Shown here one piece after another: positions 7,237-48,041 of a DNA stretch of 51,617 nucleotides. Both the position numbers and the translations under genes were made by a program. The notes beneath the pieces are model-generated. The model was not told where the DNA came from. It saw only the letters and a program-made list of their open reading frames with translations, and searched no databases. Positions within the stretch are counted from its first letter, which is position 1; every line of letters starts with the position of its first letter. This stretch comes from Methylocystis sp. (GTDB lineage Bacteria > Pseudomonadota > Alphaproteobacteria > Rhizobiales > Beijerinckiaceae), in contig JAMBEQ010000022.1 of NCBI GenBank assembly GCA_024506175.1, positions 1 through 51,617 of the forward strand, given 5' to 3'.

Positions 7237-9696
7237 ATGGACGTTTCCTCAAAGAATGAAAACAACGCGTCCAAAGGCTTGGACGTGCTGGAACAGGCGT
7301 TGCGCCGCTCGGCGCTCGCGATCCTCTCCGAGCGTCTGCTGAGGCTCGGCGCGGCGCTTGTCACGCTGGCGCTGTTTTTCGTCGCGCTGTCCTGGCTCGG
7401 GCTGTGGCGGGCTATTCCGGTCGAAGCGCGCATGGCGGGCGTCGCGCTCTTCGGCTTTCTCGCGCTTTACCTGATCGCGCGCGAGATCGCGCGCGGTCTG
7501 CCCCGACGCAAGGCCGCCGCCGCCCGCCTGGACGCCGCCGCCGATGGCCCGATGAAGCCCGCCGCCTCGCTCGACGACACGCTCGCGCGGCAAGGCGCCG
7601 ATCCCGCCACCGCCGCCCTCTGGGCCTTGCACCGCAAACGGCTCGAAGCCGCGCTGGCCGCCACGCCCGTCACACGGCCGCGTCCGCGCCTGCCGGAGCG
7701 CGACCCCTATGCCTTGCGCGCCCTGGCGCTCGTCGCCGCCATCGCCGCCGGCTTCGTCGCGGGCGACGAGAAGGGCGCCCGGCTCGCCGCCGCCTTCGAT
7801 TGGCGGGCTGTCCATTTCCTTGGCCCTGCGCAGCGCATCGACGCCTGGTTCGATCCGCCGGCCTATACAGGGCGTCCGCCGATCGTCCTGGCGCAAGAGA
7901 GCGGCGCGGTCGAAGCGCCGGTGCATTCGACGCTGCGGCTGCGGCCGGCAGAGGCCAATGTTTCCGTCGATGGCGGGCTTGCGCCGATCCAGACGCCAGA
8001 CAAGAAGGAACGCGAATTCACGCTCGCCGGACCCGCGCAGCTCTATCTGCCGGACGGCCGCACTTTCCAGGTCGCCGCAGTTCCGGACCGCCCGCCGGCG
8101 ATCGCGCTCACGGGCAAGCCGCGCAACAATGCGCGGGGCAGCATGACGCTCTCCTATCGCGCCGAGGACGACTATGGGGTCGTCAGCGCCGAGGCCGTGT
8201 TCACCAAGCCAGGGGGCGGCCGCGCGCTTTACGAGCCGCCACGCCTGCCGCTCGCTCTGCCGGCGGGGGCCGGCGGCCTTGGCGCGGGCCAGGCGACTCT
8301 CGATCTCGCCGACAGCCCCTACGCGGGCGCCAAAGCGACCATGCGGCTCGAGGCGAAAGACGCCGCCGGCAACGAAGGGGCCTCCGACGCAATCGAGGCA
8401 ATCCTCCCGCAGCGCCGGTTTACAAAGCCGCTCGCAAGGGCCCTTGTCGAGCAGCGGCGCATTCTCGCGCTCGATCCCGAGCAACGCGCCAATGTGCGCG
8501 CGGCGCTCGAGGCGCTGTCGATCGCGCCCGAGGTTTTCGAAACGCCGTCTTCGATCTACCTCGGCTTGCGCGCCGCGCGCCGAAGCCTCGAAGGCGGACG
8601 CACCGACGATGAATTGCGGGGCGTCGCCGATATGCTCTGGGCGATGGCGCTTTCCCTCGAAGACGGCGACACGTCGCAGGCCGAACGCGATCTGCGCGCC
8701 GCCGAACAGGCGCTGCGCGAGGCCATGGCGCGCGGCGTGAGCGAGGAGGAAATCGCCAAGCGCTCGCAGGAGCTGCGCGCCGCGCTCGACAAATTCCTCG
8801 AACAGCTCGGCGCGCGCGCGCATGCGCCCGGCGAGCCCCGCGAAAGCGCTGGAAACCCCGACAGCCTTACGGCCGACGATCTGCAATCCATGCTCGACGA
8901 CATCGAAAAGGCGATGAGATCCGGCGACATGGCGGAAGCGCAACGACTCCTCGACGAATTGCAGGACGTTATGGAAAACGCCCAGACCGCCGAGGAAGGC
9001 GGGCCGCAGAACGCCGCCCGCCAGAAGCGCCAGCGCGAGATGCAGCGGGCGCTGGGCGAACTCGACCAGCTTGCCCGCGAAGAGCAGCGTCTGCGCGACG
9101 ACACTTTCCAGGGAATGAAGAACCCGTCCGACGACGACGCGGGCAAGCCGCAGCAGCGCGGCGGCAAGAAGGGTCAACCGCAGGCCGCTGACGATGCGAG
9201 CCAGGAACGCCAGCGCCAGCAGGCCTTGCGCGACAAGCTGGAACGCCAGCAAGACGCGCTCAAGGGCGATGCGGGCGAGGCCGGCCAAGAGCTCGACGAC
9301 GCCCGCAAGGCGATGAAGGAAGCGGAGGAGGCCCTTAAGTCCGGCGGAGAAGGCCGCGGCAAGGCCGTGGACGCGCAGGGCCGCGCGGTCGAAGCGCTGC
9401 GCAAGGGCGCCGACAAGCTCGCCGAGCAGATGCGCGGCGAGGGACAGGAAGGCGAAGAGGGGCAGGAGGGTCAGGGCAAGGGCCACGGCCGGGCGCGCGG
9501 GCGTTACGGGCAGGGGCGCGATCCGCTCGGACGTTCCTCCGGCGGCCAACGCGCTTCCCGCGAGAAATATGATCCGCTCGGCCTTCCGCCGGCGCAGCGC
9601 GCGCATCGCGTGCAGGAAGAGCTGCGCCGCCGCCTCGGCCAGCCCGAGCGCCCCGCGGAGGAGCTCGATTATCTACAGAGGTTGCTGCAACGGTGA
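7237..9696 (+). CDS. DUF4175 / TIGR02302 family membrane protein
   Basis: An 819-residue protein. Two N-terminal membrane segments (GAALVTLALFFVALSWLGLW and VALFGFLALYLIAR) are followed by a third short hydrophobic stretch near residue 170. A large domain comes next, with the hallmark stretch FLGPAQRIDAWFDPPAYTGR and beta-rich repeats (SYRAEDDYGV). The C-terminal ~350 residues are very charged, Gln/Glu/Arg-rich and probably coiled coil, ending in low-complexity GEGQEGEEGQEGQGKGHG and a basic tail. This matches alphaproteobacterial TIGR02302 proteins, whose function is unknown. The ATG at 7237 has GGAG upstream; the ATG at 7219 is an alternative. Confidence 0.85.
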   Translation: MDVSSKNENNASKGLDVLEQALRRSALAILSERLLRLGAALVTLALFFVALSWLGLWRAIPVEARMAGVALFGFLALYLIAREIARGLPRRKAAAARLDAAADGPMKPAASLDDTLARQGADPATAALWALHRKRLEAALAATPVTRPRPRLPERDPYALRALALVAAIAAGFVAGDEKGARLAAAFDWRAVHFLGPAQRIDAWFDPPAYTGRPPIVLAQESGAVEAPVHSTLRLRPAEANVSVDGGLAPIQTPDKKEREFTLAGPAQLYLPDGRTFQVAAVPDRPPAIALTGKPRNNARGSMTLSYRAEDDYGVVSAEAVFTKPGGGRALYEPPRLPLALPAGAGGLGAGQATLDLADSPYAGAKATMRLEAKDAAGNEGASDAIEAILPQRRFTKPLARALVEQRRILALDPEQRANVRAALEALSIAPEVFETPSSIYLGLRAARRSLEGGRTDDELRGVADMLWAMALSLEDGDTSQAERDLRAAEQALREAMARGVSEEEIAKRSQELRAALDKFLEQLGARAHAPGEPRESAGNPDSLTADDLQSMLDDIEKAMRSGDMAEAQRLLDELQDVMENAQTAEEGGPQNAARQKRQREMQRALGELDQLAREEQRLRDDTFQGMKNPSDDDAGKPQQRGGKKGQPQAADDASQERQRQQALRDKLERQQDALKGDAGEAGQELDDARKAMKEAEEALKSGGEGRGKAVDAQGRAVEALRKGADKLAEQMRGEGQEGEEGQEGQGKGHGRARGRYGQGRDPLGRSSGGQRASREKYDPLGLPPAQRAHRVQEELRRRLGQPERPAEELDYLQRLLQR

Positions 9697-25450: not shown

Positions 25451-26140
25451 TTATCTTTCGGCGGTTCCGGCCTGCGAGATCAGGAGATATCCAAGGAACC
25501 GCTGGGAATCGATCGGATCGTACCCCAGCTTCTTGCGCAGCTTCTTACGCAGCTTGCTGATGTGGCTTTCGATCACCGTCTCTTCGACTTCTTCATCGAA
25601 CAGCCCATAGACTGCGTTGAAAACCTGCGTCTTCGTCAGGCGGCGGCGCTTGTTCAGGACAAGGAGTTCGAGGACGCGCCTCTCACGGCGGGGCAGGGGA
25701 AAGGGCTCGCCGTCGATCACGGGGTCGCGGCCATCGAAAAAGACCTGGATGCGGTCGAAGGTGGCGTAATCTTGCCGGGCGTCGGCGCGCCGACGGATCG
25801 CATGAACGCGCGCAAGTATTTCCCGCACATGAATCGGCTTGCGCACGACATCGTCCACGCCGGCGCTGAACAGGCCGAGCGTTTGCTCCAGCGACAGCGC
25901 ATCATTCATCGCGATAACAGGCGCCTGCGAGTGCCGGCGGATGAGCCGCGGGAGTTCTTCCCTGTCGGGACAGTCGCCGATCAAAAACGCTTCGATTGCC
26001 TGCAAGTCTTTTTCGCGGGCCGAGTCGACCCAGTCCACGAACTGCTCAAAACCAAAACCCGTCGAGTACACGCCCTCTTGACTAAACCGACTTGTATACG
26101 CGCTCGTCACTGTTTCCCTTTCATCGACGATAATTAACAT
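25451..26140 (-). CDS. ftcR: Flagellar transcriptional regulator FtcR/Rem (OmpR-type)
   Basis: A 229-residue response-regulator-like activator. The receiver domain (about residues 1-115) begins [20 protein letters not shown] and ends [18 protein letters not shown]. The winged-helix DNA-binding domain (about 130-222) has [19 protein letters not shown] and [18 protein letters not shown]. It closely resembles Brucella FtcR and Sinorhizobium Rem, orphan class II activators of flagellar genes. The usual phospho-acceptor strand (DLVLLD) is replaced by [12 protein letters not shown], so phosphorylation control is doubtful. It is divergent from flgF. Confidence 0.88.
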
Positions 26141-28431: not shown

Positions 28432-28620
28432 CCGGGCGTAGGTCGCTTTCCATTTCACGCAGCGCATCAAGCGCGCGTCCGCGTTCGAGCTCCTCGGCGC
28501 CGGCTTGCGATTCCAGGCGATTTGAAACGAATGACACACACGCCGTAAACGCGCCGTTATCCAAAGGAAAAGCTGATGATTGCGGTGTCGAGCAGGTGCG
28601 CGTACAACCTCAACATCCGC

Positions 28621-28762
28621 TGCGGACGGGAACTTAATCCCGCGGCATGACGCTGTTTCCGTTGGCCCGGTGCAACGCCGGGATGTCTCGAATGCGCAAC
28701 CGGTTTCGCCATTGTCGCGAGGCCCGCGCGTCACAGACGACAACAGTGAAAGGCGTAAGATC
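28621..28762 (+). promoter_or_regulatory. Structured 5' leader of flagellin gene 1
   Basis: This region is nearly the same as 29892-30033 before flagellin 2. It has two hairpins: CGGGA/TCCCG (28627-28642) and CCCGG/CCGGG (28666-28682). A conserved stretch, GGATGTCTCGAATGCGCAAC, follows, and then CAACAGTGAAAG before the ATG. Being long, conserved and paired, it is a candidate for FlbT-type control of flagellin mRNA. The rest of the gap, 28432-28620, holds no convincing gene. Confidence 0.65.
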
Positions 28763-29650
28763 ATGTCGAGCATCAACACAAACCTTGCCTCGCTGACCGC
28801 TCTCCAGGCTCTCCGCAACACGCAGGCGAACCTGTCCACCGCACAGAGCCAAGTCGCCACCGGCCTCAAGGTCGGCAGCGCCCAGGACAACGCGTCGACG
28901 TGGTCGATCGCCGAGACGATGAAGTCCGACAACGCGGTTCTGACGACCGTCAGCGACTCGTTGAATGTCGGCAACCAGGCGCTCTCGGTGGCCTCGTCCG
29001 CGGTCAATCAGGCGATCACCGTGATGAACTCCATCAAGCAGGCGGTCTCGCAAGCCACCGATCCGAACGCCGACCAAACCAAGATTCTGACGAGCCTGCA
29101 GGCGCTCGGCGGGCAGCTGAAGAACATCGTCACCTCGGCGAATATGAACGGCGTCAATCTGACCGACGGTTCGCAGACGACCTTCAACCTGATCGCCTCC
29201 TACACGGACGGCAAGGGCGCGGCGGCCTCCTCGATCGGAACGATCAACCTCGGCCTGCAGACCCTCTATAAGACTGGCAGCACCACGTCGATCCTCCAGG
29301 GCGCCAAGGCCACGGGCTCCGCCTCCGCGACCGACTTCACCGCCCTCGCGGCCGGCGATCTCGCCGCCGCGACGATCGGCGTCACTTTGTCGAACGCGGA
29401 CAAGGCGATCGCCGATCTCACGACCTATGCGTCGAACATCGGCGCGACGCAGTCGACCGTTACGGGGCAGACCACCTTCCTGAAGTCGCTGCAGTCCTCG
29501 CTCACCGCCGGCGTCAGCGCCCTCGTGGACGCGGACATGAACGAGGTGTCGACCCGCCTGCAGGCTCTGCAGACGCAGCAGCAGCTCGCCGTCCAGTCGC
29601 TGTCGATCGCCAACCAGAACAGCCAGATGATCCTGAAGTTGTTCCAGTAA
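28763..29650 (+). CDS. Flagellin (copy 1)
   Basis: A 295-residue flagellin, the filament subunit. The N-terminal D0/D1 region has MSSINTNLASLTALQALRNT and the C-terminal D1/D0 region has LQALQTQQQLAVQSLSIANQ and ends ILKLFQ. The short central domain is rich in Thr, Ser, Ala and Gly. It differs from copy 2 at about 17 residues by eye, so the pair is about 94% identical. GTGAAAGG precedes the ATG. A terminator-like hairpin follows the stop, so it is probably its own transcript. Confidence 0.95.
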   Translation: MSSINTNLASLTALQALRNTQANLSTAQSQVATGLKVGSAQDNASTWSIAETMKSDNAVLTTVSDSLNVGNQALSVASSAVNQAITVMNSIKQAVSQATDPNADQTKILTSLQALGGQLKNIVTSANMNGVNLTDGSQTTFNLIASYTDGKGAAASSIGTINLGLQTLYKTGSTTSILQGAKATGSASATDFTALAAGDLAAATIGVTLSNADKAIADLTTYASNIGATQSTVTGQTTFLKSLQSSLTAGVSALVDADMNEVSTRLQALQTQQQLAVQSLSIANQNSQMILKLFQ

Positions 29651-29695
29651 GACCGGAATACAGGCGACGCCCCGCGCGATCGCCAACTGTTTCGA

Positions 29696-29725
29696 AAGGG
29701 TCGCGCCTTCCCGGGCGCGGCCCTT
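29696..29725 (+). terminator. Intrinsic terminator after flagellin 1
   Basis: AAGGGTCGCGCC and GGCGCGGCCCTT form a 12-bp stem with one G-T pair and a six-base loop, followed by CTGGTTTT. It separates the two flagellin genes. Confidence 0.8.
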
Positions 29726-29891
29726 CTGGTTTTGGAGAGGCAGCCTCGGTCGCATATGCCGAGCCGTAAAAATGCGAAGCGATATGCATCCTAATCGAAT
29801 TGGGTTCAGGTGGGTGCGTCCCGTAAACCCCCTGTTAATACAAACACGGTTAATTACGAAACAGTCGGCTTAACGATAAAGCTCGATTTCG

Positions 29892-30033
29892 CTTCGGACG
29901 GGATTTCAGACCCGCGGCATGAAGCCGTTTCCGTTGGCCCGGTCAACGCCGGGATGTCTCGAATGCGCAACCGGTTTCGCCGTCGTCACGAGACCTGCGC
30001 GTCACAGACAACAACAGTGAAAGACTTAAAATC
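29892..30033 (+). promoter_or_regulatory. Structured 5' leader of flagellin gene 2
   Basis: This is the counterpart of 28621-28762. The first hairpin is kept with changed loop bases (CGGG/CCCG, 29899-29914) and the second with one base fewer in its loop (CCCGG/CCGGG, 29938-29953). Conservation outside the coding region suggests function or recent duplication. Upstream, 29840-29880 is AT-rich with AACGATAA, a partial match to a sigma-28-type -10; this is weak evidence. Confidence 0.65.
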
Positions 30034-30921
30034 ATGTCGAGCATCAACACAAACCTTGCCTCGCTGACCGCTCTCCAGGCTCTCCGCAACACGCAGGCGA
30101 ACCTGTCCACTGCGCAGAGCCAAGTCGCCACCGGCCTCAAGGTCGGCGCCGCACAGGACAATCCGTCGACGTGGTCGATTGCCGAGACGATGAAGTCCGA
30201 CAACTCGGTCCTGACGACCATCAGCGACTCTTTGAACGTCGGCAACCAGGTGCTCTCGGTGACCTCGAACGCGGTCAATCAGGCAATCACCGTGATGAAC
30301 GCCATCAAGCAGGCGGTCTCGCAAGCCACCGATCCGAACGCCGACCAAGCCAAGGTCCTGACGAGCCTGCAGGCGCTCGGCGGGCAGCTGAAGAACATTG
30401 TCACGTCGGCAAACATGAACGGCGTCAACCTGACCGACGGTTCGCAGGCATCCTTCAACCTGATCGCCTCCTACACGGACGGCAAGGGCGCGGCGGCCTC
30501 TTCGATCGGAACGATCAACCTCAGCCTGCAGACTCTCTATAAGACTGGCAGCACCACATCGATTCTCCAGGGCGCCAAGGCCACGGGCTCAGCCTCCGCG
30601 ACCGACTTCACCAACCTCGCGGCCGGCGATCTCGCCGCCGCGACGATCGGCGTCACTTTGTCGAACGCGGACAAGGCCATCGCGGATCTCACGACCTATG
30701 CGTCGAACATCGGCGCGATGCAGTCGACCGTGACGGGGCAGACCGCCTTTTTGAAGTCGCTGCAGTCCTCGCTCACCGCCGGCGTCAGCGCCCTCGTGGA
30801 CGCGGACATGAACGAGGTCTCGACTCGCCTGCAGGCTCTGCAGACGCAACAGCAGCTCGGCGTCCAGTCGCTGTCGATCGCCAACCAGAACAGCCAGATG
30901 ATCCTGAAGCTGTTCCAGTAA
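30034..30921 (+). CDS. Flagellin (copy 2)
   Basis: A 295-residue flagellin almost the same as copy 1. Substitutions are scattered and mild (for example GSAQDNAS to GAAQDNPS near residue 40, and QQQLAV to QQQLGV near the end). Both terminal polymerisation regions are intact. It has its own leader and a strong terminator. The pair arose by tandem duplication that took in the leader. FlbT and FlaF, which control flagellin synthesis, are encoded at 47282-48041. Confidence 0.95.
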   Translation: MSSINTNLASLTALQALRNTQANLSTAQSQVATGLKVGAAQDNPSTWSIAETMKSDNSVLTTISDSLNVGNQVLSVTSNAVNQAITVMNAIKQAVSQATDPNADQAKVLTSLQALGGQLKNIVTSANMNGVNLTDGSQASFNLIASYTDGKGAAASSIGTINLSLQTLYKTGSTTSILQGAKATGSASATDFTNLAAGDLAAATIGVTLSNADKAIADLTTYASNIGAMQSTVTGQTAFLKSLQSSLTAGVSALVDADMNEVSTRLQALQTQQQLGVQSLSIANQNSQMILKLFQ

Positions 30922-31123: not shown

Positions 31124-31356
31124 ATGTTGAGCATCCTGACCAATGCGTCGTTGACGGCGCCGAAAGCGCTGCGCGCGAACCGGCTATCCCTGACCGATGC
31201 GCAGCGCGAGGCCTGCACGGGAATGAAGATTTCGGACCCCTCGGATGATTCCTGCTCGACTGGCTCCAGGCGCTTCAAACGCGCCAGCGGCGCGGCGTTC
31301 GAGCGATCTGGATCGCCAATCAAAACAGCCAACCGATCATGAAGCGCTTCCAGTAA
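31124..31356 (+). pseudogene. Decayed flagellin remnant (internal deletion and frameshift)
   Basis: The start reads MLSILTNASLTAPKALRANR and then LTDAQREACTGMKISDPSDD. This lines up with the flagellin N terminus (SI-TN-SLTA-ALR-L-AQ-TG-K) with one gap. The end, in another frame, reads LQALQTRQRRG, then IANQNSQPIMKRFQ and a TAA, matching the flagellin C terminus LQALQTQQQ ... IANQNSQMILKLFQ. The central ~220 codons are missing. The 233-base span is not a multiple of three, so the halves are out of frame. The N-terminal frame alone encodes 72 residues (stop at 31342). It is far more diverged than flagellins 1 and 2 are from each other. Confidence 0.85.
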
Positions 31357-47281: not shown

Positions 47282-47686
47282 CTAGGCGGCGCAGCTCGCC
47301 TCCGGTACCGGCGTGGCTTCGGCCTCAAGAGGAAAGAGGCCGCGCAGAATTTTCAGAGCGTCGAAGTAACGCTTGCTGTCGATAAGCCTTGCGACCAAAG
47401 ATAATCCCTCAACGACACGCGAGTCGCTTTTCAAGCCTATTGCGCAAGTCGACATCAGGTCTCGTGCAAGATACAGCGCGGCATCCGTGTCGTTCGGGGA
47501 AATGAGCATCAATTGCACGGCGAAATAAAGCTGCTTGAGTGGCGTTGTCGCGTCGGCGGCCTGCATGACGTGGTTTTCGAGTAGAAAGGTCACGTCGTTG
47601 AGCAGCTCTATGCAGACCTTTCGATCCACCCGCAGCACCGCGCCATTTATGTAGATTCTTTCGCCACGCTTGAGAGAGATGTTCAT
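47282..47686 (-). CDS. flbT: Flagellin biosynthesis regulator FlbT
   Basis: A 134-residue post-transcriptional regulator. It begins ISLKRGERIYINGAVLRVDR and contains ENHVMQAADATTPLKQLYFA and LMLISPNDTDAALYLARDLM, all FlbT signatures. In Caulobacter FlbT acts at the 5' untranslated region of flagellin mRNA. Here the two flagellin genes have nearly identical structured leaders at 28621 and 29892, which are natural candidate targets. Confidence 0.94.
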   Translation of the reverse strand: MNISLKRGERIYINGAVLRVDRKVCIELLNDVTFLLENHVMQAADATTPLKQLYFAVQLMLISPNDTDAALYLARDLMSTCAIGLKSDSRVVEGLSLVARLIDSKRYFDALKILRGLFPLEAEATPVPEASCAA

Positions 47687-47693
47687 GCGACCC

Positions 47694-48041
47694 TCATTTC
47701 AGCCCGTCGGCAATCATGCGGTTGATTTCGATCAAGCCATCGAAGTTCGCCGAGTCGCCCGAGTCAATTTTGTCGAGTTCCCGCAACACCCATATGCCGA
47801 TCGATATCAACGAGGCGCGAAGCTCGACCGGAAGGCAGTTCTCGTCATTCCCGAGATCCGATACGAAAACCGCCCAGAGCGAGCGCACAAAGTGAGTCGC
47901 CTCGAAGGACTCCATGGATTTTGCGCCCCGCACGCGGGCCATCGACAGAAGTTTGACGCCCTTTTCGAGCAGATCTTTTTCCCTCTGTCGTGCGACGGAA
48001 TAAGAGTCATTGACGACCTCGTCATAGAGTCTTTGATACAT
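47694..48041 (-). CDS. flaF: Flagellin biosynthesis regulator FlaF
   Basis: A 115-residue helical protein with ARQREKDLLEKGVKLLSMAR, THFVRSLWAVFVSDLGNDEN and GLIEINRMIADGLK, the FlaF pattern. FlaF works with FlbT to balance flagellin production and secretion. It precedes flbT by seven bases. Confidence 0.92.
   Translation of the reverse strand: MYQRLYDEVVNDSYSVARQREKDLLEKGVKLLSMARVRGAKSMESFEATHFVRSLWAVFVSDLGNDENCLPVELRASLISIGIWVLRELDKIDSGDSANFDGLIEINRMIADGLK

Follow-up and report, generated by a model that had tools for sequence, protein, structure and literature searches.

Two flagellin genes lie close together in the window (the whole 51,617-nucleotide stretch analyzed here, contig JAMBEQ010000022.1 of the Methylocystis sp. 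assembly GCA_024506175.1), and the leaders in front of them are nearly identical. The locus thus raises the question of whether this likeness marks a recent duplication or a regulatory RNA and, if the latter, to what such an RNA might respond. Both genes and both leaders were found where a preliminary description of the sequence had placed them. The scores below come from two covariance models, R1, which was built on ten sequences, and a second model, R2; the motif that they describe was first drawn from flagellin leaders of Methylocystis, Methylosinus, and Microvirga.

28763-29650, forward strand: flagellin gene 1 (295 aa; Pfam PF00669/PF00700)
30034-30921, forward strand: flagellin gene 2 (295 aa)
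28620-28687, forward strand: RNA motif copy 1, P1-P4 plus AUGUC (R1 77.2 bits, R2 61.8 bits, E = 6.6e-13 in its own genome)
29892-29958, forward strand: RNA motif copy 2, P1-P4 plus AUGUC (R1 77.3 bits, R2 61.9 bits, E = 6.3e-13)

The near-identity of the leaders sets in abruptly at about 28616/29890, with unrelated DNA upstream, and extends into the genes, which differ at 50 of 888 bases (94% identical) and at 17 of 164 fourfold sites. Between the two copies of the 68-base motif there are nine differences, mostly in loops; the paired columns hold two of the nine (probability of so few = 0.07), and in copy 2 one base pair is broken relative to the motif structure. The folding energies of the single leaders barely beat those of shuffled sequences (z = -1.7 and -1.5). 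A recent duplication would be enough to account for how similar the two leaders are, and because leader divergence resembles that of neutral sites, comparison of the two copies alone cannot show selection on structure. From the two paralogues alone, it would be plausible that the flagellin genes were recently duplicated or converted and that the likeness of their leaders is a by-product without function, the leaders being no less diverged than synonymous sites. The cross-species data refute this, with covarying structure in more than 100 genomes and before unrelated genes, and we regard such an origin as extremely improbable. A third flagellin remnant (31124-31356), in which N- and C-terminal pieces are fused and the middle is gone, lies directly before fliF; no copy of the RNA motif was found upstream of this remnant. 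An OmpR-type response regulator gene (25451-26140, reverse strand) stands between flgL-like and flgF genes on the opposite strand, a position that we take to be reminiscent of the Brucella flagellar regulator FtcR.

In the computed fold, P1 (up to 7 bp) surrounds P2, which is of variable length, and P3; P4 and then AUGUC follow. The flagellin leaders of the three genera share, in order, CUUCGGA, a variable hairpin, (A)GGCAUGANGCC, UUCCGUCGA, CCGGUGNAANNCCGG, and (K)AUGUC. The elements in the two leaders of the window are as follows.

28623-28626, forward strand: P1 5' strand of copy 1 (CGGA), pairing with 28658-28661 in a covarying helix
28658-28661, forward strand: P1 3' strand of copy 1 (UCCG)
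28627-28642, forward strand: P2 hairpin of copy 1 (CGGGA...UCCCG)
28644-28654, forward strand: P3 hairpin of copy 1 (GGC-AUGAC-GCU)
28666-28682, forward strand: P4 hairpin of copy 1 (CCCGG-UGCAACG-CCGGG), with a T-loop-like loop
29895-29933, forward strand: P1/P2/P3 three-way junction of copy 2 (P1, 29895-29898 with 29930-29933; P2, 29899-29914; P3, 29916-29926)
29938-29953, forward strand: P4 hairpin of copy 2, with a loop one base shorter

The most conserved element is P3, a GGC stem with the loop AUGAN and GCC, while P4 has the form CCGG...CCGG with a mostly seven-base loop of consensus YGNRANY; 109 of 135 seven-base P4 loops fit YNNRANN, and judged by its bases the loop resembles a T-loop. 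Conservation is also high at the unpaired positions of P3 and P4, which look like a binding site. The preliminary description had recognized two stems in these leaders, the first of which is P2 and the second P4, and had overlooked P1, P3 (GGCAUGANGCC), and any connection with the region of the start codon. The 20-base block that it had noted after the second stem opens with AUGUC, whose pairing partner in most relatives is the Shine-Dalgarno sequence. In three loci (L096, L111, and L121), P3 carries the variant GACAUGANGUC, a compensated pair change, and the stretch from motif to flagellin start is much longer (107-128 nt), which suggests a different output part.

The signal beyond chance is a cross-species one, with model matches reaching E values of about 1e-16 and covariation above that of every shuffle. 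Covariation was assessed on 110 distinct sequences outside the model-building set, with shuffled and slid-partner controls. The paired state held in 92.8% of cells, 18 of 19 pairs showed double changes, and double-change cells numbered 331 as compared to 78 in shuffles; the alignment was fitted to the model, which favors structure, but the effect size is still far beyond the controls. No shuffle matched the observed values, and sliding the partners destroyed the signal, leaving far lower values. The sequences of the training set covary as well. Covariance analysis of flagellin leaders across related genomes had been proposed with the preliminary description, and the pairing indeed covaries across species. 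There is strong support for reading the leaders as conserved regulatory structures; a conserved, covarying domain in 5' leaders, as is asked of a riboswitch receptor, is what was found.

Directly after P4, AUGUCCC is complementary to the Shine-Dalgarno sequence GGGACAU before the start codon in most flagellin leaders, a pairing that we call P5. Among 173 distinct leaders, the longest P5 stem averaged 6.7 bp, as compared to 4.75 bp after shuffling, and was at least 6 bp in 138. The two strands vary in coordination (UGUUCCU/AGGAACA, UGUCUUUC/GAAAGACG, and UUUCCU/AGGAAA), and in the minimum-energy folds of two leaders (L139 and L153) P1, P4, and P5 coexist. In Microvirga P5 is weak (4 bp). An expression platform coupled to translation is thus present in most leaders by way of P5/Shine-Dalgarno pairing, and in the window's species it is remodeled:

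28683-28738, forward strand: remodeled P5 region of copy 1, AUGUCU...AGAC in a long imperfect hairpin (predicted fold)
29954-30033, forward strand: remodeled 3' part of copy 2, a UGUCU...AGACA hairpin and then GUGAAAGA up to the start codon
28748-28753, forward strand: probable Shine-Dalgarno sequence GAAAGG of flagellin 1, outside P5 (from sequence)

This rebuilt tail, in which UGUCU with AGAC(A) closes the base of a longer hairpin, is common to the window's species and a genome of the same genus (G906; loci L265 and L269). In both, the motif ends 75 bases before the start codon, as compared to the usual 26-45, and with the probable Shine-Dalgarno sequence outside the longer hairpin, the output step may differ there. 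A predicted alternative pairing of the Shine-Dalgarno region with the 3' side of P3 (ACGCUGUUUC/GAAAGGCGU in the first flagellin leader, AAGCCGUUUC/GAAAGACUU in the second) had seemed compensatory from one copy to the other and was rejected, being lost in L265 and L269. The sequence also permits an anti-P5 switch, GGCAU of P3 with AUGUC, for which no covariation of its own was seen.

Covariance models were needed to follow the motif across genomes because a BLAST search of the family with the leader as query recovered no more than scattered pieces. R1 gave exactly two matches in the window's own genome and located the motif in 75 of 199 family genomes; at the level of the order, R2 matched 103 of 328 genomes, which represent 44 of 123 genera. 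A scan of the class (387 genomes) gave strong, convincing matches only inside the order, and viral contigs and phage records gave no motif match. Weak matches that lay outside the order or scored less than about 34 bits (L124, L125, L127, L130, L203, L205, L214, L230, and L231) were rejected as false, with no motility gene downstream.

Flagellin is directly downstream in 193 of 243 matches, and several of the others are flagellins cut off by contig ends. Credible non-flagellin targets number about 31, of which about 25 are MCPs, CheA-like proteins, or GGDEF/EAL proteins, a count made on a non-random sample with matches partly fetched by multi-hit genome. They comprise chemoreceptors (some protoglobin-coupled) and CheA-like, GGDEF, EAL, GGDEF-EAL, and CHASE4-GGDEF proteins, and further targets are two ABC exporter operons, two TackOD1 proteins, and one Tad-type gene. 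Among closer relatives of the window the motif precedes more flagellins, plus CheW-like, CheA-like, and MCP-like genes, as assigned by sequence only. Querying annotated records with the flagellin leader led to Microvirga plasmids on which the motif precedes an operon of EAL and GGDEF genes: both follow it directly on the Microvirga sp. VF16 plasmid, and by Pfam the same arrangement stands behind it in Microvirga lotononidis. A consensus query led to Phyllobacterium, with the motif before annotated flagellins, and to Sinorhizobium meliloti, where it leads a che operon (globin-coupled sensor, STAS, response regulator, cheA, cheW, cheR, cheB, response regulator, cheD):

Near 8001-8042 of locus L261 (CP090106.1, 687506-703547): S. 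meliloti motif, leader of the whole che operon

In Microvirga-type genomes there are tandem motif copies before flagellin and before GAF-PAS-GGDEF-EAL genes (L025, L045, L047, L049, L051, and L080; L073, L092, L094, and L120), some of the upstream copies being weak. Two further settings were observed. The first, in four loci (L087, L088, L238, and L239), is upstream of an operon that encodes two ABC exporters and, by a weak Pfam hit, perhaps an HlyD-like protein, and that may serve type I secretion of a surface protein. In a Methylosinus-type genome (L085, 601-667; L241) the motif stands before a broken Tad-like start, about 900 nt upstream of a cluster of response regulator, CheA, and MCP-like genes, a context that is likely a rearrangement. 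The targets are thus those of c-di-GMP turnover, motility, and surface structures, and a late-flagellar regulon would look similar.

Taken together, the findings suggest that the motif is a riboswitch-type control of swimming not described before, and not the mark of a recent duplication. Our best explanation, held with about even confidence, is a translational, riboswitch-like leader acting in cis, with c-di-GMP as its most likely signal. The P1/P2/P3 three-way junction and the T-loop-like P4 would form the receptor domain; AUGUC(CC) after P4 is the first strand of P5, which in most members hides the Shine-Dalgarno sequence and would block translation; and binding of the signal would tip the RNA between two states, the folded receptor with P5 and a form in which the ribosome-binding site is open. 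High cyclic di-GMP would probably lower flagellin synthesis on such a scheme. No alternative structure joining the receptor and P5 was demonstrated. We prefer c-di-GMP as the ligand because GGDEF/EAL and motility genes recur as targets, and our confidence stays at about even because the late-flagellar gene set could also be served by a checkpoint protein: flagellin, chemoreceptors, and an EAL enzyme are a typical late-flagellar set, which does not single out c-di-GMP over such a protein. The more specific proposal of a third natural c-di-GMP riboswitch class, particular to Hyphomicrobiales and hiding the Shine-Dalgarno sequences of flagellin genes, che operons (that of S. meliloti among them), and chemoreceptor and c-di-GMP-enzyme genes, is one that we put forward tentatively, as possible and somewhat short of probable.

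One candidate for such a checkpoint protein is FlbT, and the preliminary description had suggested these leaders as FlbT targets. FlbT and FlaF are, as it had said, encoded in the window:

47282-47686, reverse strand: flbT, candidate trans-acting factor (PF07378, 123.3 bits)
47694-48041, reverse strand: flaF (PF07309, 97.8 bits)

FlbT acts on flagellin 5' UTRs, by binding in Caulobacter and, as has been proposed, in Brucella (PMC3930126, PMC4347634). FlbT (with FlaF) or another flagellar checkpoint protein could thus bind P1-P4 as its recognition site, with late flagellar and chemotaxis mRNAs repressed or destabilized until the hook is finished; flagellin is the main target by far, and in many bacteria chemoreceptors and che genes belong to the late flagellar class. 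FlbT is encoded in all 76 genomes that match strongly (E≤1e-7) and in 89 of 90 at E≤1e-5, but FlbT, present in 249 of 328 genomes of the order, simply tracks having flagella, so that co-occurrence cannot separate dependence on FlbT from possession of flagella. Against this explanation, 173 FlbT genomes of the order have no strong motif match, the scan of the class turned up no convincing match in its other orders, so that the motif does not look like an FlbT target shared by the whole class, and the targets include GGDEF-EAL, CHASE4-GGDEF, ABC exporter, and Tad-type genes. Among 40 FlbT-less genomes searched with permissive filters there was one good match, of 38.9 bits and upstream of a PAS-GGDEF-EAL gene, in a genome that lacks flagellin as well as FlbT and is also the exception at E≤1e-5 (G803); as a motif independent of FlbT it is suggestive only, being a single, weaker case in which P4 departs from consensus. 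The earlier suggestion is thus partly supported: the regulatory structure is borne out by covariation, and FlbT is a candidate factor for it. FlbT is a live rival, yet neither the variety of targets nor the confinement of the motif to a single order favors it, and we consider a protein-bound leader unlikely, though the strongest of the alternatives.

The same structural and genomic evidence would fit a riboswitch of the same architecture for another small signal, be it another cyclic dinucleotide, ppGpp, or a metabolite, since the ligand is not fixed by sequence; aptamers for many ligands contain three-way junctions and T-loops. The recurring GGDEF/EAL enzymes, some of them in two-gene operons, point more to c-di-GMP feedback, however, and we think a different ligand improbable. 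Flagellin mRNA is very abundant, and a constitutive leader that, with no ligand, stabilizes abundant mRNAs or sets a translation rate or temperature response would suit such a message, as P5 alone could be a thermosensor or set the initiation rate. Such a leader would leave unexplained the highly conserved, binding-site-like unpaired bases of P3 and P4, and tandem copies and low-abundance targets (GGDEF-EAL) are hard to explain by stabilization; it is a very unlikely account of the motif.

About a third of the genomes sampled in this order, to which the main nitrogen-fixing symbionts and many methanotrophs belong, carry the motif before flagellin or chemotaxis genes. If the riboswitch-like explanation is true, motility in these bacteria would be under direct RNA control, and the timing of flagellin translation in alphaproteobacteria would become testable in S. 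meliloti, a model symbiont in which the presence of the motif on the che operon makes it easy to test genetically. If the ligand is c-di-GMP, the chief lifestyle signal of bacteria would gain a new natural receptor in this motif.

In the literature covered, Rfam 15 and open-access papers, no description of the motif was found. No Rfam 15 family matched any leader tested, from the window or its relatives, at the gathering score, and the c-di-GMP-I and c-di-GMP-II models gave no match to the window leaders even at E values up to 10. The main text of a 2024 survey of 50 genomes has no flagellin-associated motif (PMC11109978). The ykoW motif of that survey, as far as its description there goes, is likewise a three-stem junction near the Shine-Dalgarno sequence upstream of an EAL-domain gene and differs in having 11 representatives, in Thioalkalivibrio only, a distinction drawn from the description alone. 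The FlbT-regulated flagellin 5' UTRs of Caulobacter and Brucella are similar in that the leader is thought to control translation or stability, whereas the RNA of the window is restricted to one order in the 387-genome model scan and also stands before non-flagellin genes. The flg-Rhizobiales RNA (RF01736) likewise forms structured leaders of flagellar genes in this order, but it precedes an flgF-type rod-protein gene, has CUUGGGAGAG hairpins and no GGCAUGANGCC, lies at other places in the same genome, and gives no convincing R2 match; identity with it was thus ruled out. There is a functional likeness to the c-di-GMP riboswitches (c-di-GMP-I/GEMM, RF01051; c-di-GMP-II, RF01786), which are structured leaders, sometimes in tandem, placed before flagellar, chemotaxis, pilus, and GGDEF/EAL genes. 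Their conserved sequence and helix arrangement presumably differ from those of the flagellin-leader motif, and the mix of genes that they govern is similar.
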